DNA from: a virus
Virus record (IMG/VR): IMGVR_UViG_3300030430_000289
Coordinates: 1 to 32,317 of that record
Direction: 5' to 3' (one strand)
DNA: 32,317 nt
Shown piece by piece: positions 1 through 24,082 of this stretch (its first letter is position 1; every line of letters starts with the position of its first letter). A program made the position numbers and the translations under genes. The notes below the pieces were generated by a model, which searched no databases, was not told where the DNA came from, and worked only from the letters and a program-made list of their open reading frames with translations.

Positions 1-1808
1 TTACGTAGTAAGTCTGATCCTGTCTTTGTAAACTTACCACCTGTGGCTAGACCACCAAGCATATACATACTGCCTGTTGATATATCAGCTAATGTAGAAC
101 CTACATAAAACTGTGAGAAACCTGCAATGTTCAAGCCTGTTGTAGCAGGTGATGATATAAGTAATCTACGCCACACACTTTGGCTGTAAGCTCCAAGCTT
201 AGGACGTTTTACTTTTCCTGTAGCTTTGAGTATCTCTTCTTCCATCTGCTCTTTTAGCTGTGGAGTACGCACTAAGTTGATCATGGCATTGTGTCCTGCA
301 ACAAGACCTGAATCAATTGTACTTCTTACTTGAGACATCACTGCACCGTAAGTCATACCTCTGCTAACATTTGATGCTATGTAGTCACCTATCTCTTGTG
401 CTATTTCTGTTGTATCACCTAGAGTATAACCAACTAGAGGCTGCATACGTTTAGCTATGATTTGTAAATCATCTTCAGGTATCTGTCGGAGGGTGTTTGT
501 CATTACATCTGTGACACGTACATTCTTAGGAATTGGCTTACCTACTTCATCAAGGTAAAGTTTTGCAACACCGCCCTTGCCGTCTTCTCCTACCATAATG
601 GTTTTTAAAAAGTCTGCTGGCATTACACCTGTCTGAAACATATTATCGCCACGATTACGTTTTGTCTCCCAAGAATCTAACGCATCATTTAGTTCATCAG
701 TGTACTTCTTAATTCTTTCTTTTGATAGTGGTACTAAAAGCTTGCCTTCAATGTCAGCCTCTAGCTCTGCCTTACGTTTACCTGCAACAAGTTTACCTTT
801 GGTGTCTTTGAGTCCACTCACACCCTTGAGTTTACCACCTACAAGTTGAGCACCACCGCCAACAAGACCTAGCGCAGAACTAAATCCTGTTTGTAACATA
901 CTGTATTCTTCTTGTGCTCCTACATCTAACATGACATTCTGTATCATGTTGTCGTGCAGCATAGCTAGTGATCCATCAATACCTGTAGTAGCTAACAGGG
1001 AACCACGCACAGCTTTCTTAGCTCTTTTATCTAAAAACTCTCTCTGTGCTTTCTTTTTAGCGTTGTATATAAAGTTACGCTGCTCCTGTAGAGCTACACG
1101 TTCTTGTAACTTTTTAGCTGCAGGACCTTTTATACCTGCTTCTACTATGCGTTGGGACACACGTTCTGCTGCTTCATCTGCTGCTTTCTTAGCACCCTGT
1201 GTTGTAGCACCAGACTTGGCTGCTCTTTGTCCTGCTTCTATAGCGGCCTGTCTGACTAGCTCTTTACCACCCTTTGTTATACCTAGGGATGCAGCCTTAC
1301 CTAAACCACCAGTAAGTAGACCAATGTAGTTAGAAGGATCTGTAGCTGCAGCTTGGATGTAGTCAAACACACCATCTACTGCACCATAAAAACCATCGTT
1401 TACAAACACATTGCCTAGCTGATCGTATAACTTGTATGCGTCACCTGCTAGTGCCTTATCTTGTTGACTCGCATTTGTGATGTGTCTTACTTCGCCACCT
1501 GTGTTTATGATGTTGGTGTTGAAGCTACGCATGTGATCCATAAAATCTTCTACAACATCTTCGTCACTCTTGTCGTTATACTGTATGCCTCTGCGAGACA
1601 CCATATACCTACGTATAGTGCGTAAGTTAGAAGCCTCATACAAGTCTTTCTTCTTAAGCTTACCACCTTTGTCAACAAGCTCACTTTCACTGCGTACAGG
1701 TATAGGCTCTTGTTGTTCTACAGTGGGCGGCTCAATACGGTTAGGTGCAAGTATGTCATCCTTTGTAACGCCATACTGATCCATCAAGTCTAAGAAGGAA
1801 TCACTCAT
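1..1808 (-). CDS. Large internal virion / DNA-ejection protein candidate (3' part beyond window)
   Basis: An open frame runs from an ATG at 1806-1808 to the left window edge (about 602 codons, no stop), so the C-terminus is missing. A GAGG ribosome site lies about 12 bases upstream. The protein starts MSDSFLDLMDQYGVTKDD and is rich in Lys, Ala and Gly. There is an alanine/lysine-rich, probably helical and coiled stretch at about residues 185-265, with hydrophobic Gly/Ala segments nearby (LLTGGLGKAASLG near 160-175 and SALGLVGGGAQLVGG near 295-310). I see no catalytic motif in the visible part. It is the last visible gene after the fibre, lysis and other virion genes. A very large late protein in this place usually is an internal core or ejection protein of the T7 gp15/gp16 kind; that role is inferred from place and size, not from a recognised domain. 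Confidence 0.75.
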   Translation of the reverse strand, partial: MSDSFLDLMDQYGVTKDDILAPNRIEPPTVEQQEPIPVRSESELVDKGGKLKKKDLYEASNLRTIRRYMVSRRGIQYNDKSDEDVVEDFMDHMRSFNTNIINTGGEVRHITNASQQDKALAGDAYKLYDQLGNVFVNDGFYGAVDGVFDYIQAAATDPSNYIGLLTGGLGKAASLGITKGGKELVRQAAIEAGQRAAKSGATTQGAKKAADEAAERVSQRIVEAGIKGPAAKKLQERVALQEQRNFIYNAKKKAQREFLDKRAKKAVRGSLLATTGIDGSLAMLHDNMIQNVMLDVGAQEEYSMLQTGFSSALGLVGGGAQLVGGKLKGVSGLKDTKGKLVAGKRKAELEADIEGKLLVPLSKERIKKYTDELNDALDSWETKRNRGDNMFQTGVMPADFLKTIMVGEDGKGGVAKLYLDEVGKPIPKNVRVTDVMTNTLRQIPEDDLQIIAKRMQPLVGYTLGDTTEIAQEIGDYIASNVSRGMTYGAVMSQVRSTIDSGLVAGHNAMINLVRTPQLKEQMEEEILKATGKVKRPKLGAYSQSVWRRLLISSPATTGLNIAGFSQFYVGSTLADISTGSMYMLGGLATGGKFTKTGSDLLR

Positions 1809-1817
1809 ATTAATACT

Positions 1818-3722
1818 TTATCCTCTAAATGCTTTTTGAAATTGTACAGTTAGGAATCCCATGTTGTAAGGCAATCTCTTATTGTTTGCATCTGCCCACT
1901 CACTGAGTGCTCTCATGATGTCAAAGGTATCAGCATTTTCATCTAGACCTTGCTCTTGCATATATTTGAATATGTCTTCACCAAAGTCAGCCATTACAGA
2001 CAGATCTAATTCTGTAATAGTTCCTGTGTCCATACCTGTTTCTATTTCTTCATCTGTAGTGTTAGGGAATATTCGCTTAATTTTATCCCTTACACTTGTT
2101 ATTTTTTTAGAACCTGGCTCTAGTTCTGCCATACGTGCAGCAATAGTCTCACGTTTCACCTTGCCTTTAGGTAATTCTATGAATCCATTTTCTGTAGCAT
2201 TCTGTGCACCAACCTTAGATGTGGGTAGACCAAGTAGCTTCCTAGCGTTTGGACCCATCTCTTCCCACTCTTCAAAGGTAACTCTATCTCTGTCCATGTA
2301 CTCTGCAGCTTTACGGATACCCATTTCTTCTGCAGTTTCGGTTACGTCTTCTACTTCACGTTTTTGCTCAGGAGGTTCTAGCTCAACCTTCTTCTCTACA
2401 GGGTCTTCTGTTTTAGGTTCGCTGATTGCTACGTTCTCTAAAGTATCTATCTCTTCTAGATTTAATTTTTTGAGTGCTTGCTCTTCCACTGGACCTATAG
2501 GTGTCTCTTCTTTTTCTAGGTGCTGTACTAGTACATCCCACCCTTCGCTTTCAGGTGTGTAAGTATTACCACCATCAGTTTTAACCTCAAGAGGGTTACC
2601 TTCTGAGTCAGACTTTGTTACGGTAAACTCAATGTCCTCAAATAGTTTTTTAGTTTTAGGCACTTCTCCTAATGCCTCTATGGTTTCTGTATCAATATCA
2701 CTATCTGTATCTATAGCCTCACTAGTCTGTTTCATGGTAGGAAACAATAGTTCACGTATGCTTTCTACGTATTCTTCACCTACGTTAGCTAACATACTAG
2801 TTTCTAAATCTTCAAATGCAGCTAGTCCATATGTATCTATGGCATCATCGTACACCATTTGATAGAGAGGCATTTCTATAGATTTTACTTTTTTCTGTGC
2901 TGCTTCATACGCAGCTATTTGTTGTTTTATATTTGCATTATCTGGGCTTGTTTTTAAATCACTTTGAAGTTGAGCTAGCCCACCTCTTTCATCAAGCGTT
3001 TCTAGTGTCTCTAAGGCAGCTTTATACTCAGGGTCTAACTCTTCTCTATCTTTCTTTAAAGTTACAATACTATCAAGTACAAACTTCTTAGCTTTTAGAT
3101 CAAAGCGTTTCATATCTGCTATCACTGCATAAGTAGAGGGTTGTAATGCCTCATACTCTTGCTGTCGTGCTAACATATTTATATCTTCAGCAGTATATCC
3201 ATCATAGATAATCTCACTACCAAGCTTGTACTTTGACCGCATCATGGCTGAGTCACCAGTAAGCCTATCAAAGAAACCTATATCTGGCTTTTCTGCAGTA
3301 GCACCTTTTGTTTCTAAACCAAGGCCATACGTTTTTCTTACGTATTCATCCATGTCCATGTCAAGAGGTTGAAAACCCTCTGGTAGTTTTATGATCATGT
3401 CTACTTCAGTATCACTTAGCTTTCTACCACCATTAGCCTGAACTGCTGCTTTAACTTTAGTAGACAAGTCTTGTATGGCTTGAGGTCCACTTGCTATTGC
3501 AGCTTGCATTTGTGCAGTGCTTACACCTTGATCCTCTAAATAACTTGTAAGACCTAACACCTCATTCACTACAGAGTTACGCCTAGAGATCTTCATGATG
3601 TTATCTTTGGCTAACTGCTCTTGCTCTAACTCGAATTTACGAGCTTCTTTCTTTTTCTCTTTTATGTTCGCTGCTGCTGTTTCAGCAAACCCTTCAGCGA
3701 AGGCTCTCCAATCAAATCCCAT
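1818..3722 (-). CDS. Internal virion protein candidate, 634 aa
   Basis: The 634-residue protein begins MGFDWRAFAEGFAETAAANI followed by a Lys/Glu-rich helix (residues about 20-45). The N-terminal pattern of an aromatic start, an 'AFAEGF' helix and a charged coiled segment resembles virion proteins I know from other marine phages. The middle is a mix of charged helices. Residues about 400-480 are acidic and Pro/Glu-rich and probably disordered. No transmembrane segment or enzyme motif is visible. The ATG has a good AGGAG site about 10 bases upstream. It sits between a small structural protein and the large ejection-protein candidate, only 9 bases from the latter. Role as an internal or ejection protein is inferred from position, size and composition. 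Confidence 0.7.
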   Translation of the reverse strand: MGFDWRAFAEGFAETAAANIKEKKKEARKFELEQEQLAKDNIMKISRRNSVVNEVLGLTSYLEDQGVSTAQMQAAIASGPQAIQDLSTKVKAAVQANGGRKLSDTEVDMIIKLPEGFQPLDMDMDEYVRKTYGLGLETKGATAEKPDIGFFDRLTGDSAMMRSKYKLGSEIIYDGYTAEDINMLARQQEYEALQPSTYAVIADMKRFDLKAKKFVLDSIVTLKKDREELDPEYKAALETLETLDERGGLAQLQSDLKTSPDNANIKQQIAAYEAAQKKVKSIEMPLYQMVYDDAIDTYGLAAFEDLETSMLANVGEEYVESIRELLFPTMKQTSEAIDTDSDIDTETIEALGEVPKTKKLFEDIEFTVTKSDSEGNPLEVKTDGGNTYTPESEGWDVLVQHLEKEETPIGPVEEQALKKLNLEEIDTLENVAISEPKTEDPVEKKVELEPPEQKREVEDVTETAEEMGIRKAAEYMDRDRVTFEEWEEMGPNARKLLGLPTSKVGAQNATENGFIELPKGKVKRETIAARMAELEPGSKKITSVRDKIKRIFPNTTDEEIETGMDTGTITELDLSVMADFGEDIFKYMQEQGLDENADTFDIMRALSEWADANNKRLPYNMGFLTVQFQKAFRG

Positions 3723-3725
3723 ATC

Positions 3726-4280
3726 TTAAGCTCCTCTTGCCATCAAGCCTTGGGGTTCAGCCATTTCGCTTACTTCCATTTCATCTTCTTGTGGTACTTC
3801 ATCTGTCTCTTCTTCTAGAGTACCTTGTAATGTCTTCAACAAGTCTAGACCTACATCACCCTCTTTACCTTTAGCATCTGCTACAGCTAACTCTATAGCT
3901 AGTGATAGTCGTTTTCTTTCACGCTCTTTGAGTTTCTCTTCGGGATCTTCAATGTCATCTCTTACTTCTATGCCGTAGGTAGTCATCGATGCTTTGATAA
4001 ACTCGTGTATAACAGGAGCTACAATCAAACTTACATCCACACTGTGCAGTCCGTTCATAACACCTGTAGTCAATAATGTTTTAACAAAAGGAGCTACAGG
4101 CATGTCACCGCCAAAGAGTACAGATAAATCATCCATGATCTCTTCATCAGCTAACTTGTTGATGTAGTATTTAGTTACTTCATCAGGATCAACCATTTCA
4201 GGTGGATTCTCCCAAGGCCAGTTCTTAGGTTCATCTGTCAGAGACTGTCCTGGTATTGGTGCTTCAAAAAATGATGCCAT
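3726..4280 (-). CDS. Small virion-associated protein with PGQSLTDEP N-terminus
   Basis: The 184-residue protein starts MASFFEAPIPGQSLTDEP and continues with a Trp/Pro-rich segment (WPWENPPEM, residues about 21-29). This N-terminal signature recurs in structural proteins of many marine phages, where its job is not settled. Residues about 30-105 look helical, residues 110-150 form a charged helix, and the C-terminus is acidic and ends QGLMARGA. That ending resembles QGLISRP inside the GH19 lysin (see findings). The ribosome site is AGGAT about 10 bases before the ATG. It lies 11 bases after the holin candidate and 3 bases before the next virion gene, so it is surely co-transcribed with both. 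Function unknown; virion component or assembly factor is my best reading. Confidence 0.7.
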   Translation of the reverse strand: MASFFEAPIPGQSLTDEPKNWPWENPPEMVDPDEVTKYYINKLADEEIMDDLSVLFGGDMPVAPFVKTLLTTGVMNGLHSVDVSLIVAPVIHEFIKASMTTYGIEVRDDIEDPEEKLKERERKRLSLAIELAVADAKGKEGDVGLDLLKTLQGTLEEETDEVPQEDEMEVSEMAEPQGLMARGA

Positions 4281-4291
4281 CTTATTATATC

Positions 4292-4735
4292 CTATTTAGT
4301 AAATCCTGCGCCAAAGTATAATCCTACAATGGCTGATACGATATGTGTGTCTAGTGGTGTGATTACAAAGCCTTGAGCCATCTTCCACTTGATAGCTTCA
4401 TCTGGTCCAAACAACCAACTAAAGAAACCACCAGTAGCCTCAGTGTATCCTACATACACACTCACTTCAGGATACCATACTGCAACCAACTTTGGCAATA
4501 CAATTATAGAGAACACAGCAGATAAAGCTATAAGCCTACGTGTCCATGCAAAGTGTTTGTCATTCTTACCTGCATCTCTTGCGTCAGCTACAGCACTACG
4601 GTTAAACTCTGCACGTTGCATAAGCATCTCTTGCTGCAACTGACGGTTCTTCATTGACTGACCCCAGATAGACATTACTCCACCTAGCACAGTGGAGAAG
4701 AGCATTGTGATTAGTTCTAGTGGTAATCCAAACAT
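4292..4735 (-). CDS. Holin candidate (multi-pass small membrane protein)
   Basis: The 147-residue protein has hydrophobic segments at about residues 5-25 (LELITMLFSTVLGGVMSIWG), 68-90 (LIALSAVFSIIVLPKLVAVWY) and 128-145 (IVSAIVGLYFGAGF). A basic/polar helix around residues 28-65 (QLQQEMLMQRAEF) separates the first two. Small size, two or three membrane spans and a basic loop are what a holin shows. Its start codon overlaps the lysin stop (TAATG), which is the usual holin-lysin pairing. No holin family can be assigned from sequence alone. It could also be a virion membrane protein or a lysis regulator. Confidence 0.65.
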   Translation of the reverse strand: MFGLPLELITMLFSTVLGGVMSIWGQSMKNRQLQQEMLMQRAEFNRSAVADARDAGKNDKHFAWTRRLIALSAVFSIIVLPKLVAVWYPEVSVYVGYTEATGGFFSWLFGPDEAIKWKMAQGFVITPLDTHIVSAIVGLYFGAGFTK

Positions 4736-6192
4736 TAAAAAGGTGGCCTTTCCATTATTCCTGCAGGTTTTATTCTAGGACGTGGAGATGAAGTTGGAGC
4801 AGAATCAACGGCACGAGAGCTTGTTGGCATATCTTCGTTATACATCTCTTTGTAAAACTTTTGAGTAGACTTCCATCTTTTCTTAGCTTCTTTTTTATTT
4901 TTATCACTATGGCCTACTATAGATGCAAGCCTGTCTTGAGTTAAATCCGCAAATATAAAACCACTATCTCTTAAGTATGCTAAGGATGCTTTTAACATTA
5001 CATCTTTGTCTGTTTCTAATAATTCAGGATTATTAACTAGATCAACACCTATAGCATTTCCTACTCTTTTATAATTTTTTCTACCTGTAATTTGTAATAT
5101 GCCTCTGCCTTTGTATGTTGAACCATCATTTGTACCTGCCCTGTTTCCTAAACGTCCTCCATATACGATATTAAATATGTCATCAGAGGTGTAATCATCA
5201 GGTAACGCTAGTATATCTGCTTTACGCTTTGTCATTCTAGGTCCAAGAGTACCATCTGCACGAGCATTACGATCAACAAAAATTTCTATAGCTTTATCCT
5301 TTGTATAGCCTTTTTCTACTAAGCCTTTACCAGATTCTGCTTGTACGGTTGCCACAAAAGCAGCAGCTTTTACAGGATTAGAATATGTATCTTTAGCAAA
5401 TTCTTTTATCTTATCCATGTTAGGTGTCACACTGTTCCCAGAAACTGTGAACATACTTTCCGTATATTCTTTTCCAAATCTAGGCTGCACCTCATCAGCA
5501 CTAAGAGAATTATCAATGATACTAGTAGCCTCTTCATCTGAGATTCCTTGTTCTTTTAGTACTTTTTTAACCTCACTCTGCACACCTTTTTCAGTTAAAC
5601 TTCCTGTAATACCAATAGCATTTAAAAATCTTGGGCTTAGTATTTTACTATCTACCCTTACTTCTTCTGTGGGTTCAGCTTCTTCTGCCATTGAAGGTAC
5701 TTCAGTTCTGTCTACCTGTTTAGCATCTGACGGTCTACTTATTAAACCTTGCGGCTGTGTCTGTGTTATGTCAAGTGTTTCGCCTTCACTATCTACTATA
5801 GGCTGATCATCAAAGGTTGCAGTATATGTGTCAATTGTAGTATATATATCTTCTAGTTTGTTTGGAGACTCACCTAGTGTAGATACTTCTTTTATTGCGT
5901 CTTGAATGATTTCACTCTTCATCAATTTAGAGTATTCTTCTAACACTTTGTTTTTTGGTGTAGTTGTAGTATCTTCGCTAGGTTGTTTAGGTTCGTAGCC
6001 ATTATCTCTAAATAGTTGTGCTATACCTTCTAAAAAGTTATTGTCTAGCTCAACCGTTTCTGTTTCAGGCTTTGCTCCTATGCCACGATTCTTCCTAGAC
6101 ACCTCTTCTAGAGTTTTTTTACTCCTAGTAACAGACTCAGTATAGCCACTAATGTCTAAGTCTAAACCACTTAATGTTTTATAGTCTGCCAT
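4735..6192 (-). CDS. Glycoside hydrolase family 19 (chitinase/lysozyme-like) lysin with long N-terminal extension
   Basis: This 485-residue protein carries a GH19-like domain in its C-terminal half, about residues 265-450. The likely first catalytic glutamate is E286 in VQAESGKG. The typical GH19 block follows: YGGRLGNRAGTNDG (344-357), YKGRGILQITGRKNY (360-374) and NNPELLE (387-393). GH19 enzymes of phages cleave the glycan strands of peptidoglycan. Residues 1-240 are acidic, low in hydrophobic residues and probably partly disordered, with the short motif QGLISRP at 148-154. The tail of the protein also ends in a short Pro/Arg-rich stretch. The usual phage GH19 lysin has about 200 residues, so this is more than twice as long. 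It directly precedes the holin candidate. It may be the endolysin, a virion-borne lysin used at entry, or both; the long extension makes virion docking possible. Confidence 0.85.
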   Translation of the reverse strand: MADYKTLSGLDLDISGYTESVTRSKKTLEEVSRKNRGIGAKPETETVELDNNFLEGIAQLFRDNGYEPKQPSEDTTTTPKNKVLEEYSKLMKSEIIQDAIKEVSTLGESPNKLEDIYTTIDTYTATFDDQPIVDSEGETLDITQTQPQGLISRPSDAKQVDRTEVPSMAEEAEPTEEVRVDSKILSPRFLNAIGITGSLTEKGVQSEVKKVLKEQGISDEEATSIIDNSLSADEVQPRFGKEYTESMFTVSGNSVTPNMDKIKEFAKDTYSNPVKAAAFVATVQAESGKGLVEKGYTKDKAIEIFVDRNARADGTLGPRMTKRKADILALPDDYTSDDIFNIVYGGRLGNRAGTNDGSTYKGRGILQITGRKNYKRVGNAIGVDLVNNPELLETDKDVMLKASLAYLRDSGFIFADLTQDRLASIVGHSDKNKKEAKKRWKSTQKFYKEMYNEDMPTSSRAVDSAPTSSPRPRIKPAGIMERPPF

Positions 6193-6196
6193 TATG

Positions 6197-9112
6197 TTAG
6201 CCTGTTATAATTGAACCTACTAGACTACCGATAGCATTAGCAAAGGATGCACTCTTACTTGCTGCTGCACTACTTGCTGCTGCTTCATTAGCTAGTTCTT
6301 GTACAGCAATAGTTGTAGCACGATCAGCATTGTTATTCTCTAACTGGAATGCAAAGCTCATGAGGTCACGCTCACGTTGCCATATCTGATCCATGTTAGC
6401 TGCAGTCAATCCGTTGATCACCTTAGCAAAGTCCATGTTGCTTTCATTCTGTGTAGCTGTATTGATTGTAGCTATGCTCTGTCTCCATGCAGCATTAGAC
6501 TGTGCTATCACTAAACCATTCTGTGCATTGAACAAGTCACGCTGTTGCTGTAGACCAGAGTTAAACTCACGCAATGCATTCACACTGTTGACGTTGAATT
6601 GATCCATAGCATTCTGTTGTGTAGCATTGAACTGTGCAGTTTGGTTAGCCAAGTTAGCAAAGAACTGATTTGTTTGATTCTCACTAGATGCGTTGAACTG
6701 TGCCGTAGCATTCTCTGCAGCTTGATCTGTAAACAGAGCCTGTATGTTTTGCTGTGTCTTGAATATAGAAGTCTGCTGTTCGTTGGATAGACTAGCCATG
6801 TCCATCTGTAAAAAGTTAGCCGCATTCTGTACTGCAGCCTGTTGTCTATTTGACAAGTTAGCTATATCTAGTTGTGACAATGCAGCAGCCTCAGCCATCA
6901 CCATAGCTTGTCTGTTAGACAGGTTGGATAGTTCCATAGTGTTTGCTGCACGAGAGTTCTCTAAGGCTATCTGTTGTTCAGCCGTAAAGTTCATGTTAGC
7001 AATGTCACCGATACGAGCAGAGTTAGCTACACGAGCTTGGAATGCTTGATCAAACTCCATGCCCATAAAGGTAGCACGTTGCTGTGCAGCAAGTATCTGT
7101 CTTTGCTGTCTGTTAGATAAGTTCTGTGCTTCAAATTGTGCTATAGTAGCTGCATCCATCTGAGCGATAGGTAGTGCTGCTTCCATTGCAGCTTGCACTA
7201 CAGCTTGACCTGCAAGACTAGACGCACCAAGACCACGAGCAGAGAGTGTAGCCATTGCGGTACGCATAGATCCTGCAGCCCAAGCAGGTGTCTCACCACC
7301 CTCAAAGTCAGCCATTAACTGTTCTAGCTGACCTGCAACTGTTGCCTGTTTAGTTGGTGTAGCTTCTGCAGCTTGTATTGCTTCAGTAAATGTAGCAGCT
7401 TTAGTAGCATCTGCTTCACCAGATATTATCTCACCGTCTTTTATTTCTCTAGGATCAGGGGCATCTACTTTTATAGCGTTACCTAGTTCCGCTTCCATAC
7501 CTGTGATAGATGTACCAACTTGTTGTTCTGCAGTAATCTCTTTTGTAGGTGTGCCTGTAGCTGCAGTTAGTCCTGCAGTTTGTAATTTTACTTGTGGTGT
7601 AACAGTAGTAACATCTGCCTCTACAGGTGTAGAAGTTGTAGGTTTTACGGCTTGTTGTACAGTACCTACTGTAGCAGCTTCCGCAAAAGGAGCTATGGGT
7701 ACAGTCTGACCTGCATCTACTGGAATAAACTCACCTGCAGTAGGTTGTATCATAGCTGTGGTAGGTTGCATTGGCTGCATTGTTTGTCTTACAGCATTGG
7801 CTTGCATCTGAGCTAATTGCTCTGTAGTAAGACCACCCTCTTGATAACCTTGTACTGCACCGCCCCTGTTAAACTTTTGTATGTAACCACCAATAGCAAG
7901 ACCTTTAGCTTTTGCAGCAGGGTTAGCCTCTTCAAACTTGGCATGACCTTCTCGTGTCTTAGGACCATTGTAACCCATCTTACGGAAGATACGGTCTTTA
8001 CCTTCTAGAGACATAGTCTCCATCAAGCCACCCTCTGCAGCGCCTGTAGCTTCGATCTTAGAAAAACCCGGTGGTACATATGTTGTAGGTACACCGTTAA
8101 ACTCAGTAATCATTATTTGCTGACCTAGCTGATTAGCATAGGGTACAGTCTGATAACCTTGAAATACTTCAGGATAAGTTGCGCCTGTTCCTGGCTGAGT
8201 TGTTACAAGGGTAGGTGCTACTGCGCCTTGTGTACCTGCGTACTGTGTTTTGTAAGAAACTTGAGATGGTACAGCAGACATACCGCCTGTTTGTGTAGTT
8301 GTTGCAACTGTGCTTGGACCTGATCCTGCTGTTGGTACTACATCCTGATATGTAACTGGTGTTACTTGCTGCATTACTGTTTGAGACTCGTCAGGATCAA
8401 CAATAGGCACACCACCTGCAGGTACTTGTTGTACAGTTGTTGGAGGAGTTACAGCTTGAAAAGCGCCACCTGCTACAGCAGGATCTACAGTCTGCATGTA
8501 GTCACCTGCTGTTAAACCTGTTGTACCTGTTCCTGTTGTGCCATCGCTACCATCTGTTGTGTCTTCTGTGTCATCTTCATCGTCATCATCTTCTTCTATA
8601 GGAGTCACAGTAGTAGCTTTACTTATACCTATAATCTCATTAGCTAAAGTTCTAGCATGTTCAGCTTCTACTGCATCACTACCTATTCTACCACCAAGAG
8701 TACCTACGACATTGCCTTGACTGTCAACTAAGTCTAGCATAGTTTCTTTATCTCTTTTAAGGAAACCGCTTCCACCTACAGTTAAATTAGAATCGTCATA
8801 GGTTACACCTGTAGCCTCTGCAGCAGCAGTTGCAGCCTCTTTAAATCTGTCAAACTCTCTCTGTAACTGCCCTGCGTTATAACTTCTTCTACTTGAAGCA
8901 GATCTTCTATTTTTTCCTGAGCCTCTTCTTTTTCCTTTTGCAGCATTCAATATAGTTTCAGTAACAGTGCCGTCTGCATTAGTAACTTTCTTGATTATAC
9001 CAGTACCGCTACCTGTAGCTACAGCATCATAAACTGTACCGTCAGCAGCAGTAAAAGAATCTATAACTTGTGCATTTCTTGATCCTGTAATTACATAATC
9101 TAAGTCAGACAT
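6197..9112 (-). CDS. Large structural protein with 22-residue-periodic C-terminal rod, 971 aa
   Basis: The 971-residue protein has three parts. Residues 1-190 contain a basic stretch near 58-75 (GKRRGSGKNRRSASSRR) and an acidic end near 175-190 (EEDDDDEDD). Residues about 190-640 are Thr/Val/Pro/Gln-rich and low in complexity, with a motif block KMGYNGPKTREGHAKFEE (near 377-395) and glycine-rich AIGGYIQKFNRGG and GYQEGG (near 405-428), which I have seen in marine phage virion proteins. Residues 664-971 are an uninterrupted series of 22-residue units (see repeat entry) predicted to be helical, ending in a Gly/Ser/Ile hydrophobic tail. The ATG has an AAGGA site. The protein follows the fibre cassette and precedes the lysin. 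An internal core or DNA-ejection role, comparable in place to T7 gp14-gp16, is plausible but inferred. Confidence 0.75.
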   Translation of the reverse strand: MSDLDYVITGSRNAQVIDSFTAADGTVYDAVATGSGTGIIKKVTNADGTVTETILNAAKGKRRGSGKNRRSASSRRSYNAGQLQREFDRFKEAATAAAEATGVTYDDSNLTVGGSGFLKRDKETMLDLVDSQGNVVGTLGGRIGSDAVEAEHARTLANEIIGISKATTVTPIEEDDDDEDDTEDTTDGSDGTTGTGTTGLTAGDYMQTVDPAVAGGAFQAVTPPTTVQQVPAGGVPIVDPDESQTVMQQVTPVTYQDVVPTAGSGPSTVATTTQTGGMSAVPSQVSYKTQYAGTQGAVAPTLVTTQPGTGATYPEVFQGYQTVPYANQLGQQIMITEFNGVPTTYVPPGFSKIEATGAAEGGLMETMSLEGKDRIFRKMGYNGPKTREGHAKFEEANPAAKAKGLAIGGYIQKFNRGGAVQGYQEGGLTTEQLAQMQANAVRQTMQPMQPTTAMIQPTAGEFIPVDAGQTVPIAPFAEAATVGTVQQAVKPTTSTPVEADVTTVTPQVKLQTAGLTAATGTPTKEITAEQQVGTSITGMEAELGNAIKVDAPDPREIKDGEIISGEADATKAATFTEAIQAAEATPTKQATVAGQLEQLMADFEGGETPAWAAGSMRTAMATLSARGLGASSLAGQAVVQAAMEAALPIAQMDAATIAQFEAQNLSNRQQRQILAAQQRATFMGMEFDQAFQARVANSARIGDIANMNFTAEQQIALENSRAANTMELSNLSNRQAMVMAEAAALSQLDIANLSNRQQAAVQNAANFLQMDMASLSNEQQTSIFKTQQNIQALFTDQAAENATAQFNASSENQTNQFFANLANQTAQFNATQQNAMDQFNVNSVNALREFNSGLQQQRDLFNAQNGLVIAQSNAAWRQSIATINTATQNESNMDFAKVINGLTAANMDQIWQRERDLMSFAFQLENNNADRATTIAVQELANEAAASSAAASKSASFANAIGSLVGSIITG
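6200..7123 (-). repeat. Fourteen consecutive 22-residue (double-hendecad) protein repeats
   Basis: From residue 664 to the C-terminus (971) the protein divides into 14 units of exactly 22 residues with no insertion. Units start NLSNRQQRQ, EFDQAFQAR, NFTAEQQIA, NLSNRQAMV, NLSNRQQAA, SLSNEQQTS, DQAAENATA, FANLANQTA, NVNSVNALR, NAQNGLVIA, NTATQNESN, NMDQIWQRE, NADRATTIA and AASKSASFA. Asparagine opens eight of the 14. Units 7-9 also show an 11-residue half-period (QFN or EFN every 11). The last one or two units are degenerate. The spacing fits a hendecad helical rod, but the structure is inferred. Confidence 0.85.
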
Positions 9113-12223: not shown

Positions 12224-15200
12224 CTAAACAACTCTTATTTTTAAATTCTGTGCAGCTAGACTTTTGATCTGTACTTTATTGGCGGCAGGGTGAAAGAAGT
12301 CATAGTCAGTACCCAATACCGCACCTTCATTTAATGCAGCCGCATCGTAGTTAAGTGTTACACCATCACTAGTTGGCAGTGTAGCTGCAGCCGTGTCCAT
12401 ACGCAGCGCAATCATCAGGTCTAGGCTTGTGCCAGTTGGGAAATGGTTAGCATCTGGAATAGCATCTAGTTGGGTCTTATCCATGCGGTTAAACGCTTGT
12501 GCGCCTAGTGCTTGTTGTAAGGTGTAGAGTTCATCGTTTGTTGAACCGTTAACCCATGTTGTACCTGTGCCGTATGCTGAAGATGTAGTAGAGAACTCAT
12601 AGATTTTATTACCGCTTCTAGACCATACTAAAAGTCTTGTTCCATTATCAATAAATGTCATTCCCTCAAAATTATAATCATTAGAATTCTGATAAGATAA
12701 TTTGTTGTTACTGTAAGTAGCGGTACTTACATCCCATGCAGTTGACAGATTATATTCGTATACCCCACCCCAAGGAGCAGCAGTATTGCCGTTTACATCA
12801 TCACTAATAAACATTTTAGTACCAGTAGGATTAAAAAGTACGGCTCTTGGTACTGTTGCTTGAGGTGTTACAGTAAAGCTTTGATTTGCATAAGAAGCTG
12901 TACTTAAATCCCATGCTGTAGATAAATTGTATCTATAAACTGTTTCTGAAGAATACCCTATTATGTAAAAAGCAGTACCATCTGGTTTAAAAGTTAAATG
13001 CGTAACAGTACTTTCTTGTGCAGATATGCTTACATTTACACTGTTATAAGAAGCAGTTGATACATCCCATGCCGTAGATAAATTGTATTCATGAACTTGG
13101 TCATTACCATAACCTGCCATGTATAATTTTGTACCATCTGGTTTAAAATGTATTCCTGACGGACCAATGTCTTGTCCTGCCATACTAAAACTTTTGTTAT
13201 CATATGACATTGTGGTTATGTCATTAGCTGTAGTTAAAGAATATTGATAAATAGTTTGATTTGTAGTGCCAACAAAATACAATTTAGTTCCATCAGGCTT
13301 TACTTGAATGTCTTGTCCACTACTTTCAACACTTCCGTAATCTGCCGAAACAACACTATTATATGACCCACTAGCCATACTATAACCTGCTGTTGTACCT
13401 GCATCATTATTATACTGCCATGTACCACTGTTATTCCTGACAATTGGACGAACACCATCAGTACCTTTAGCAACAGACCAAGTTGTTCTACCGTCATTAC
13501 TGACTGCGTAGTGTACTGTGCCTGTACCTGCGCTTTGTGCGGCTGTCATGCTGTTGATGTCTATAAATGATGAACTGTCTATTTGACCGCCAGCGTTGGT
13601 TACGGCTACATGGTATTGGGCTGTTGGTTGTGTAAAAGAGCCAATGTTCCACTGTGATATTTCATTGTTATACATAGTGTATATTCTTGTTTCATCAGGC
13701 TTAATAAAAAAACCTTCAACAGCGTTGGTGTTTACCGTAACACTAAAACTTGTATCATGAGTAAAACCACTACTTAGTTCAAAAGGTGTACTTAAGTTAA
13801 ATTTATAAAATCCACTATTGTTACCTGAGAGATACATAGCAGTACCGTCTGGATTAAATGCAATATCAAAAGGATAATTATTTACAGAATTTACTGAAGT
13901 AAGGGCATCAAAACTGATATTGACTATATCTTGTGTAGCAGTAAAATTCCATCTTACTACTGTATCTGTATTTCTATCAACAGTATAAATTTTTGTACCA
14001 TCAGGTGTAACAAATATACCATTGAAGCCACCGTTGACCCTATTAGAAGCGTATACATTTTTGCTTCCACTATAAGAAGCGGTAGACAAATCCCAAGCAG
14101 TGCTTAAATTCCATTGATAAATATAATCGCTATCTTGCCCAGCGAGATACATTTTTGTGCCGCTAGGATTGAAAGCAACGTCTATCATATTTCCATCATA
14201 ACCACTAGTAGTAATAGACTGACCTGAAGTTGCTGTTGTGTTTAATGTAGACAAATCCCAAGGTGTACCAAAATCATACCGCTTAACTCTATCGTCTTGC
14301 GTTGATACAGTATAAAGATACAAACCATTTGGATCTATAGTAAACCCTTGGTCACCACCTGCGCTGGTGCTTCCTAAAGTAACTTTATGTGTATGACCAT
14401 CTGTAGTGTCTAGTAATGTATAGTTACCTGATGATGCTTTTCCAGATATAGTAATACCACTAACATCACCTGCCGACTTTAGCCCAAACATCTGCCAAGA
14501 CCCTGCGGCTATCGTAGAGTTATCTGTAAATGCAGAGCCGCCTGTTGTATCAAATGCACCACCAGTAGACGTTAAGATTACATCACCGCCATTGCCGACT
14601 ATGCGTTTGCCTACGTCTGTACCAGCAAATGAGCCAGAGCCTAGAGTTACAACATTTGTTTGACCAAAATTATATTCATATGCATCATCGGTTGCATTGA
14701 CTATAAATATTTCTGAATTGTCAGGTCTTATCGTTAAACCTTGATTATTAGTTGATTGTGTTGATGTTGTAAAATCTCTATTTGGCGTAGACATTGTACT
14801 TGTATCATAAGCAGTTGAGCAATTGTATTCAGTAATTTTTGTTGCTGTTACTATGTAAATAACAGTTCCATCACTATTAAAGACAATGTCTTTTGGTGTA
14901 GCTAAAACATTTGCATTTCTTACATGGGAAACTGTAGATAAATCCCATGCAGTTGATAATGACCATTCTCCAATATGGTTGTTAGTGTAATCTGTTATGA
15001 ACATTTTTGTGCCATCAGGTTTAAAAAATATACCTTGAGAGCCAGTTCCATGTTGTGAGCTAATATTATTACTGCTGTCGTAAGAAGCATAAGCTAAATC
15101 CCAAGGGTAACTAGAATTTATAGTATACTTAAAAACAGAGAGAGTGTTACCAACTATGTAAAACTCAGTTCCATCAGGTTTAAAATATAGACCTCTTGCG

Positions 15201-15742
15201 TTAGATAACTGACTAGCATGACTAAATGCTCTAGTATATGAAATTGTACTTAAATCCCAAGCAGTGCTTAAGCTGTGTTCATATACAGAACCACCACTAC
15301 CAGAGGTAAAAACTTTTGTTCCATCAGACTTAAAAGCTATAGCCTGTGTATCATTTCCAGTTACATGACCTGTTTTACTTGCATAGGTAAGGCTTGTGAC
15401 TTGTGAATCAAAACCACTGCTAGGCGTAAGCGTCACATTCGCAGCCGTATTGTGGAAGTCATAATTACTTGCCGTAGAGTTTACATCCCAGTTACCCTTC
15501 GTTGATATACCTGACTGCGGTACTTCTTTGGTGACTGAGACTACTGGTCCTACAGTTACATTAGAGCTAAGAGTAATGTTAGCCGTTTCGTTTTGAGCAA
15601 AAGTCTTTGTAAGTGTACCTTTAGTCGGATCAGTATTAAGCGCAGAGTTAAATGCGGTAACTGTTCCACTGTCTATACTTGCTATGTTTTTTAGCTGTCG
15701 GCTGTTATCTACAACTTCTATGCCGCCTACTTTTATCGCCAT
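12224..15742 (-). CDS. Giant tail fibre with three five-repeat propeller-like modules, 1172 aa
   Basis: Residues 1-125 form a fibre N-terminal region. Then come 15 copies of a 'F-x-PDGTK-x-Y-x-x-G' strand motif, usually followed by 'Y-x-LSTAWDLSTASY'. They fall in three groups of five, at about residues 135-360, 470-705 and 815-1055. The first spacer (about 362-470) begins VVTLGSGSFAGTDVGKRI and the second (about 707-815) begins QPTAQYHVAVTNAGGQ; both are beta-rich segments of a sort found in marine phage tail proteins. Residues about 1060-1172 are a separate domain (ELYTLQQALGAQAFNRMDK, ending LKIRVV). The blade motif resembles beta-propeller repeats, so carbohydrate or receptor binding is likely but inferred. 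There is an AAGGA site before the ATG. Confidence 0.8.
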   Translation of the reverse strand: MAIKVGGIEVVDNSRQLKNIASIDSGTVTAFNSALNTDPTKGTLTKTFAQNETANITLSSNVTVGPVVSVTKEVPQSGISTKGNWDVNSTASNYDFHNTAANVTLTPSSGFDSQVTSLTYASKTGHVTGNDTQAIAFKSDGTKVFTSGSGGSVYEHSLSTAWDLSTISYTRAFSHASQLSNARGLYFKPDGTEFYIVGNTLSVFKYTINSSYPWDLAYASYDSSNNISSQHGTGSQGIFFKPDGTKMFITDYTNNHIGEWSLSTAWDLSTVSHVRNANVLATPKDIVFNSDGTVIYIVTATKITEYNCSTAYDTSTMSTPNRDFTTSTQSTNNQGLTIRPDNSEIFIVNATDDAYEYNFGQTNVVTLGSGSFAGTDVGKRIVGNGGDVILTSTGGAFDTTGGSAFTDNSTIAAGSWQMFGLKSAGDVSGITISGKASSGNYTLLDTTDGHTHKVTLGSTSAGGDQGFTIDPNGLYLYTVSTQDDRVKRYDFGTPWDLSTLNTTATSGQSITTSGYDGNMIDVAFNPSGTKMYLAGQDSDYIYQWNLSTAWDLSTASYSGSKNVYASNRVNGGFNGIFVTPDGTKIYTVDRNTDTVVRWNFTATQDIVNISFDALTSVNSVNNYPFDIAFNPDGTAMYLSGNNSGFYKFNLSTPFELSSGFTHDTSFSVTVNTNAVEGFFIKPDETRIYTMYNNEISQWNIGSFTQPTAQYHVAVTNAGGQIDSSSFIDINSMTAAQSAGTGTVHYAVSNDGRTTWSVAKGTDGVRPIVRNNSGTWQYNNDAGTTAGYSMASGSYNSVVSADYGSVESSGQDIQVKPDGTKLYFVGTTNQTIYQYSLTTANDITTMSYDNKSFSMAGQDIGPSGIHFKPDGTKLYMAGYGNDQVHEYNLSTAWDVSTASYNSVNVSISAQESTVTHLTFKPDGTAFYIIGYSSETVYRYNLSTAWDLSTASYANQSFTVTPQATVPRAVLFNPTGTKMFISDDVNGNTAAPWGGVYEYNLSTAWDVSTATYSNNKLSYQNSNDYNFEGMTFIDNGTRLLVWSRSGNKIYEFSTTSSAYGTGTTWVNGSTNDELYTLQQALGAQAFNRMDKTQLDAIPDANHFPTGTSLDLMIALRMDTAAATLPTSDGVTLNYDAAALNEGAVLGTDYDFFHPAANKVQIKSLAAQNLKIRVV

Positions 15743-22711: not shown

Positions 22712-24082
22712 TTATATTGCTTCTGGGTCTACTGTTGATGGAGCTATTTCTCTTGAAGCCTTATTCTGTTCTTCTTCCCTTGCAACCTCAGCCTTTTTTA
22801 ATTTTGTAAAAGCTTTACTTGCTTCTGACTGAGCCTTTATAGCTTTATGTCTTGCTAGGTGATCATTACCTGCAGCCTTGACTGCGTTTGTTGCTTTCAT
22901 CCAATCACTCTGTGCTTCTGCAGAACTGCTAGGTGAGTACGTTGAACCACCACTATCTTTAGCACCTGCTTTACTTCCTTGAAGCTGAGTTACGTCTACA
23001 CCTCTACGTGCACCCATGAATGAATCTCTTAGTTTAGCTCCCTGTACACCAAAACCTCCATCGTCAAAACCTAGTAAGTCACCTAACCAAGTATCGCCAA
23101 AAGACTTACCCTCTATACCATCCGTATCAGCTAAACCTTCGTAAATGCTACCTTCACCACCGAAGATACTTCCTTTACGTTTACTTTGATCTGTTAGTTG
23201 ATCATTATACTTAGCCACAGCTTTAGTATTTATAAGTGCTGTTATAGGTATACCTAATGTACCTGCTAGTGCAGTAGATAGATCAGCTAGTAAACCTAAC
23301 CCTTTAGTTGTCTTTTCTAAGTCTTTATCTTCCATTGATCCAGTGATTGAGGATATATCTGTAGATCCTACAACGCCAGGATCACTATCTGTAACTTCTG
23401 GCTCTTCACCTACTGTAGTTTCTGTTGTAGTTTGTATAAGTTTAGTAGTCCACCCATCACTTAACATTTGATCATATTCTTCTTTGCTAGTAGCATACCT
23501 AGGATTTTCACCTTCTTTGTACATTAAGACAGGCTGAAATACATTAGGATTAGCAAAAGAAAAACCTGCCATGTATTTACTAAAGTCAAACTGAGCTTGT
23601 GTTGGATCATTCTCTGTAACTGTGCCACCTTCATCATAACCTGCGTTACCCATAGCAATAGGTGCACCTTGTCTGTACATCATCTGTTGTTGTTGATACG
23701 GATCAGGCATTGTAGACTGTGTAGGTTGTCCTGTAATGAAACCGCCTACTGCAGCACCAATCGAGTCTAGCTCTGCTTTCTCTTCATCTGTAAGCTCATT
23801 ATCGTTAGCAGGTACAGGTTGACCACCTATACGTCCTTCTCTATCCATACGAGCTAACTCCATCTTAGCATATTCTCGTAAGTCTTCAAAGAACTTCATA
23901 CCATAAAAACGAAGAACATCAGCAGGTACTACATACTCACCTTCACTTAGTTGGGCAGGAATATCATCTCTTACTTCTTCAGGTAGTGAGCCTGGGGGTA
24001 CTTCATTACCTGATACTGGGTCTACCTCAACATCGTCTGCCATGAAAGCTAGTACCATTTGTTTATCTTCATTTGCTGCCAT
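22712..24082 (-). CDS. Structural protein with 'SEGEYVVPADVLRFYG' motif, 456 aa
   Basis: The 456-residue protein has the signature DDIPAQLSEGEYVVPADV then LRFYGMKFFEDLRE at about residues 39-70. This block recurs in marine phage contigs, near head genes, with no settled function. Residues about 100-170 are Gln/Gly/Pro-rich with GYDEGG, and residues 215-245 are Thr/Asp/Glu-rich. A Leu/Ala-rich segment (LGLLADLSTALAGTLGIPIT, about 263-282) could be a helix that inserts into a membrane or packs in the head. The rest is Gly/Ser/Lys-rich. It lies between the 64-residue gene (14-base overlap) and the scaffold. It may be a minor head protein or an ejected protein; the position next to the portal is the main clue. 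Confidence 0.7.
   Translation of the reverse strand: MAANEDKQMVLAFMADDVEVDPVSGNEVPPGSLPEEVRDDIPAQLSEGEYVVPADVLRFYGMKFFEDLREYAKMELARMDREGRIGGQPVPANDNELTDEEKAELDSIGAAVGGFITGQPTQSTMPDPYQQQQMMYRQGAPIAMGNAGYDEGGTVTENDPTQAQFDFSKYMAGFSFANPNVFQPVLMYKEGENPRYATSKEEYDQMLSDGWTTKLIQTTTETTVGEEPEVTDSDPGVVGSTDISSITGSMEDKDLEKTTKGLGLLADLSTALAGTLGIPITALINTKAVAKYNDQLTDQSKRKGSIFGGEGSIYEGLADTDGIEGKSFGDTWLGDLLGFDDGGFGVQGAKLRDSFMGARRGVDVTQLQGSKAGAKDSGGSTYSPSSSAEAQSDWMKATNAVKAAGNDHLARHKAIKAQSEASKAFTKLKKAEVAREEEQNKASREIAPSTVDPEAI

Follow-up and report, generated by a model that had tools for sequence, protein, structure and literature searches.

The stretch of DNA analysed here (the window, 32,317 bases) is a fragment of an HMO-2011-type podovirus, with its structural block on the minus strand in the order terminase, SU10-type portal, capsid, SU10-type adaptor, nozzle-like protein and tail fibres. 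The tail fibre genes are followed by those for a 971-aa repeat protein, a GH19-type lysozyme, a small membrane-type protein, a 184-aa protein and a 634-aa protein, and finally by the start of a giant protein (Table 1). The lysozyme gene is the immediate downstream neighbour of the repeat gene, and its product is likely to be either the wall-opening partner of the repeat protein or the endolysin. The 184-aa protein accompanies the repeat gene, close downstream, in all 12 related phage loci tested (phmmer E-values 2e-9 to 6e-40). Neither the 634-aa nor the giant protein had a phmmer match (E 1e-3) in 13 related phage loci, that of CRP-2 included, although the repeat protein itself shares 71% identity with its CRP-2 counterpart over the last three quarters of its length; the part downstream of the repeat gene may have undergone mosaic exchange.

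Table 1. Position and basis of assignment of the repeat protein gene, its parts and the genes downstream of it in the window
Feature	Position	Strand	Basis
971-aa repeat protein gene, residues 1-971	6197..9112	-	open frame; homologues in phage records and IMG/VR contigs
Conserved helical head before the array, residues 580-654	7151..7375	-	conserved columns, AF2
Hendecad array proper, residues 664-883, ten 22-residue double units	6464..7123	-	autocorrelation, register profile, length lattice
Conserved helical stem after the array, residues 884-949	6266..6463	-	conserved motif, AF2; weakly in register
Ala/Gly/Ser-rich, mildly hydrophobic C-terminal tail, residues 950-971	6200..6265	-	outside the repeat
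485-aa protein with GH19-type lysozyme/endolysin domain	4735..6192	-	Pfam PF00182 E 3e-10; phrog_181 endolysin E 1e-25
147-aa membrane protein, ~3 hydrophobic segments	4292..4735	-	hydrophobicity scan; phrog_38283 (unknown function)
184-aa protein	3726..4280	-	phmmer matches in related loci
634-aa protein, in the place of SU10 gp23	1818..3722	-	synteny only
Giant protein start, first 602 aa (cut by the window edge), in the place of SU10 gp24	3..1808	-	open-ended ORF; synteny only

The 971-aa protein has no Pfam or PHROG match. Homologues were found in 27 phage records (tblastn, E-values down to 0) and at 78 loci, and the family includes phage1322_25 of HMO-2011, gp49 of CRP-2 and CHOED_013, with significant similarity over the head, the array and the stem. 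The best relatives belong to HMO-2011-type phages of Roseobacter, SAR116 and SAR11 bacteria, and more distant ones to phages of Vibrio, Aeromonas, Pseudoalteromonas and Rhizobium. With the exception of one 'huntingtin', these relatives are annotated as 'hypothetical protein'. No relative turned up when bacterial genomes were scanned with the CHOED protein, searching the PDB by sequence and by fold gave no useful match for the repeat protein, and in the literature searched the 11-residue repeat of the HMO-2011-type protein is nowhere described. The confident BFVD matches of the AlphaFold2 (AF2) model appear to be the repeat-protein family itself, the matches including 66%-identical and CHOED-length entries.

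Characteristic motifs mark the head (P.WA...RG...SS...PIA) and the stem (W...RD...EN..DR). LysM, a peptidoglycan-binding domain, was present in 4 of the 90 homologue N-termini scanned; in the CRP-235 homologue (L090:3411-5942) it occupies residues 71-110, and an apparent endolysin/transglycosylase domain in this protein was rejected, the domain being LysM. The N-terminal halves of the homologues are otherwise extremely variable in both length and sequence. The C-terminal tail is variable in length, and in relatives it is replaced by, or stands before, S74 or other domains. CRP-3-type homologues (L086, L090, L092 and L099) end in a peptidase S74/endosialidase-chaperone domain, which is unusual outside fibres and spikes; most relatives are without it. 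S74-bearing proteins are also included in the PHROG family of SU10 gp21/gp22. The HMO-2011 homologue (L080:12679-14091) carries a different extra C-terminal domain over its last ~75 residues, which starts FCWVAREVYG and has no significant Pfam match.

A preliminary description of the window had divided residues 664-971 into 14 consecutive 22-residue units without any indel. The segment does divide in this way, and the 22-residue period is real and far above chance: identity autocorrelation over residues 664-971 was highest at lag 22 (z 6.7) and lag 11 (z 5.7), followed by lags 33, 66, 44 and 55, the 99th percentile of the maximum in the shuffle control being 3.8. Since lag 11 and further multiples of 11 accompany lag 22, the basic unit is one of 11 residues, and 22 residues constitute a double unit. 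The register of the units was tested with a hendecad profile trained only on homologues with other array lengths. All ten double units of residues 664-883 fell into one register (rank 1 of 11 each), those of residues 884-949 fitted weakly (ranks 2, 1 and 1), and the last, residues 950-971, was out of register (rank 8 of 11), so that about ten units are supported rather than 14. Inside the window protein the array is indeed free of indels; between homologues its length does vary, in multiples of 11.

This placement of homologue array lengths on an 11-residue lattice is the new and strongest result of the analysis. Array length was measured as the spacing between the PIA motif of the head and the N..WR motif of the stem in 292 homologues from phage records and IMG/VR contigs. 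The spacing ranges from 113 to 751 residues and equals 3 mod 11 in 290 of the 292 homologues, and in 17 of the 19 distinct lengths; in the window protein it is 223 residues, likewise 3 mod 11. Because homologues share lengths by descent, the fair measure is the number of changes on a tree rather than the 290. On a tree built from the flanks only, there were at least 33 array length changes, and only two length classes lie off the lattice, one owing to a single inserted residue close to the C-terminal anchor and the other to a gap of 4 residues close to the N-terminal edge. No such quantisation was seen in three control spacings of these proteins, namely within the head, from the stem to the C-terminus, and from the protein start to the head. 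Head length (51-60 residues) differs between homologues by steps other than 11, and the spacing from the stem to the array anchor is invariant at 38 residues. Random-length indels inside the units of homologues, which the preliminary description had named as evidence against its reading, are not what the homologues show, the length changes being almost all quantised in 11. The register of Asn is constant along the array in every length class, even in the array of 751 residues.

Larger steps are also seen. The array lengths 311, 421, 531, 641 and 751 are separated by 110 residues, or ten hendecads, and the longest arrays have autocorrelation peaks at lags 55 and 110, i.e. a super-period. A subgroup of marine contigs (L310, L299, L311 and L149) carries arrays of 751, 641, 531 and 421 residues, respectively, with strongly diverged copies. 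Arrays of 157 and of 212 residues both occur in phages of one host strain, FZCC0040, and the host envelope alone therefore does not set array length.

Among 69,667 array residues there are just 2 prolines, whereas the N-terminal parts contain 5.6% proline; Gly makes up ~1% of the arrays. AF2 predicts helix only and no strand, in agreement with the helical reading proposed earlier; neither a disordered nor a globular fold, either of which would have spoken against that reading, was predicted. In the AF2 model (pLDDT 72 with 82 sequences, pTM 0.32), the head forms three helices at pLDDT ~73-87, the region 580-690 being well predicted, confidence is low at residues ~705-780, and a nearly continuous helix extends over residues ~777-970. 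The strict structural constraint that had been supposed for the repeat is supported by the 11-quantised length changes, the almost complete lack of proline and the unbroken Asn register. The C-terminal half of the protein most likely forms an extended alpha-helical shaft with an 11/3 (hendecad) periodicity.

In an 11/3 helical wheel averaged over 125 non-redundant homologues, there are two hydrophobic seams, {3,7,10} and {1,5,9}, a face {0,4,8} of Asn or charged residues, and an amide face {2,6} of Gln, Asn, Ser or Thr. The seams are not purely hydrophobic, position 5 in mid-seam being mostly Gln or Asn. The hydrophobicity spectrum does not have its main peak at the 3.67-residue helix period that had been expected from the sequence, but at 2.74-2.76 residues (11/4), 3.7 being a minor peak, and the helix first harmonic is ~0. 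A simple two- or three-stranded coil or a lipid-binding helix is therefore unlikely. As candidate folds, a single-faced amphipathic/lipid-binding helix was rejected for the same first harmonic of ~0, and a beta-solenoid with Asn ladders on composition, on the near absence of Gly and Pro, and on the all-helix predictions.

Among known systems, the H protein of phiX174, a decameric alpha-helical DNA tube, resembles the repeat protein in several respects: both have 11/3 hendecads, are rich in Asn and Gln and low in hydrophobic content, have their top hydrophobicity component at 4 cycles per 11, and share the same face order (charged, hydrophobic, amide, hydrophobic). In the H tube, 18 of the 23 lumen-facing residues are Asn, Gln or Arg (PMC7354561). 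With the H hendecad sequences printed in that paper, the best alignment puts both invariant lumen-type Gln residues on the amide face (mean r 0.60, p 0.034 after shift optimisation; three H repeats, a small sample). However, H has only three hendecads, which are followed by heptads, and guides ssDNA, whereas the repeat protein has 10-68 hendecads and belongs to dsDNA podoviruses; moreover, the oligomer is known for H and is putative here. As to homology with H, searches with the repeat protein gave no relevant PDB sequence match and no PDB fold match.

The podovirus ejection proteins compared were SU10 gp20-gp24, P22 gp7, gp20 and gp16, T7 gp14-gp16 and DEV gp71-gp73. The ejection block of SU10 comprises gp20 (a transglycosylase), gp21-gp23 and the giant gp24, which are reported to occur in virions and to be absent once the genome has been released (PMC9509320). 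The repeat gene has a similar place, beside a wall enzyme and before a giant last gene, the giant being matched by place only, and its product shares with SU10 gp21/gp22 and P22 gp7 an N/Q-rich, Pro-poor helical body and a Gly/Ala-rich C-terminus. No homology to SU10 gp21/gp22, P22 gp7/gp20/gp16 or T7 gp14-16 was detected by hmmsearch, hhalign or genome search, and none of the SU10, P22 and T7 ejection proteins examined has an 11-residue repeat. A link to SU10 via phrog_4287/6121 was rejected as homology, the phrog_4287 matches of CRP-212 and CRP-738 vanishing once S74 is trimmed. The designation 'ejection protein of the T7/P22/SU10 kind' thus fails as a family claim on homology, but stands as a way of working: taken together, synteny, the neighbouring lysozyme and the LysM domain of some relatives place the repeat protein among the ejection proteins.

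We tentatively favour the reading that the repeat protein is an internal (ejection) virion protein, the helices of which pack side by side into an amide-faced conduit; this may well be correct, although we would stop short of calling it probable. Its location in the virion, its oligomeric state, the lumen and the place in the periplasm are all putative. Copies of the protein would leave the head via the tail and pack side by side through the two hydrophobic seams, and so contribute to a tube or sleeve that spans the cell wall. The amide face would line the DNA path, as in the H tube of phiX174, and the neighbouring lysozyme would open the peptidoglycan. Beyond any indel of 1-10 residues the two seams would lose their register, and we therefore propose that selection keeps only 11-residue steps. 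The near-exclusive occurrence of multiples of 11 suggests a register-locked rod or tube with a part in bringing viral DNA across the bacterial envelope. At 1.5 Angstrom per residue, a single straight helix would measure ~17 nm for an array of 113 residues and ~113 nm for one of 751. Since the ~113 nm of a 751-residue array reach beyond the periplasm, the long forms must fold, coil or serve elsewhere, and these arrays, together with the differing lengths within one host strain, speak against a rod whose length is simply matched to the host envelope. The S74 domain of some relatives suggests trimers, and counts against the conduit reading. A more specific version, in which the array is a modular trans-envelope tube or ruler, i.e. 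an amide-lined helical conduit of ~10 to 68 hendecads tuned by single register steps and a podoviral counterpart of the tape measure, appears rather unlikely.

Another possibility is that the protein is an ejection protein in which the array is folded into antiparallel helical hairpins, as a T7 gp15-like bundle or ring, with the super-periods of 55 and 110 corresponding to helix and hairpin lengths. This would account for the climb from 311 to 751 residues in steps of 110, for the lag 55 and 110 peaks of the longest arrays and for the helix breaks that AF2 places in mid-array, and it has a precedent in T7 gp15 and DEV gp72, which form rings that rearrange on ejection (PMC8954989, PMC10925440). 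However, most length steps (11, 22, 66, 88) are not of 110 residues, the turns would be short of Gly or Pro, both nearly absent, and AF2 gives one long helix over residues 777-900. Hairpins are therefore a serious contender, though on balance an unlikely one.

It could also be that the array is a tape-measure-like ruler or scaffold, an extended helical rod that sets some dimension of the virion and is not a DNA channel. The tape measure protein of TP901-1 has 11-residue repeats, and tail length follows its residue count (PMC5099701), so that it shares with the repeat protein an 11-residue repeat within a long phage protein, an evolvable length and a link to DNA delivery; that array length is widely variable, and not by host strain alone, would fit such a role. 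On the other hand, TP901-1 is a long-tailed phage with Trp/Phe-marked repeats of mixed 11/18 spacing, whereas the units described here are strictly of 11 residues, Asn/Gln-rich, and found in a short-tailed phage without a tail tube to measure. The window carries podovirus-type portal, adaptor and nozzle genes, and the 971-aa protein has no tape-measure match in Pfam or PHROG, only weak BFVD rows being so named. A ruler in this sense is improbable.

A purely mutational origin of the lattice, by unequal recombination between units and with a register that is structurally unneeded, must also be considered, since tandem repeats generally change by whole units and the steps of 110 residues look like block duplications. 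Recombination between units may be the source of the length changes. However, the window array has no DNA-level tandem repeat and its units are strongly diverged, half-unit steps (11) do occur, and small indels, common in the flanks of the same genes, are nearly absent from the array. Mutation alone is thus an improbable explanation too, and selection against register shifts seems to be needed to explain the near absence of changes other than by multiples of 11.

The S74 domain at the C-termini of CRP-3-type homologues is an intramolecular chaperone typical of trimeric fibres, and tail genes lie upstream of the repeat gene, both of which would be in line with a trimeric coiled-coil tail fibre, needle or appendage. 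Such a trimer would require one seam, yet the helix first harmonic is ~0; S74 is missing from most relatives, the gene follows the fibre and chaperone genes in what is the ejection position, and PHROG groups S74-bearing proteins with SU10 gp21/gp22 too. We consider the chances of this explanation to be slim. Repeats of 11 or 22 residues are typical of lipid-binding helices of the apolipoprotein/synuclein style, and Asn/Gln ladders of some beta-solenoids. The present 11/22 repeats would fit such folds, as would the Fourier pattern, which alone cannot separate a two-seam helix from beta alternation, but the lack of a single hydrophobic face, a helix-forming composition with ~1% Gly and practically no Pro, and an AF2 model without strand make them exceedingly unlikely.

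Most ejection proteins of marine podoviruses carry the label 'hypothetical', and they evolve apart too quickly to be recognised by conventional homology. Sequences can, by contrast, be screened for a lattice of 11 residues kept over arrays of 113 to 751 residues, and with such a signature the difficult question of how a phage with a short tail makes a path for its DNA through the envelope becomes open to test. Since HMO-2011-type phages are an abundant marine group, the repeat protein is presumably common in the sea.

Two further proteins of the window are of note. A 456-aa protein encoded between the portal and the capsid region (22712-24082) gives a weak tape-measure PHROG match (E 2.5e-6); the place of its gene suggests a scaffold. 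Among the tail fibre genes (12224-15742), a 1172-aa protein has matches to a lactonase-type seven-bladed beta-propeller (Pfam E 6e-13) and is perhaps a receptor-binding propeller.
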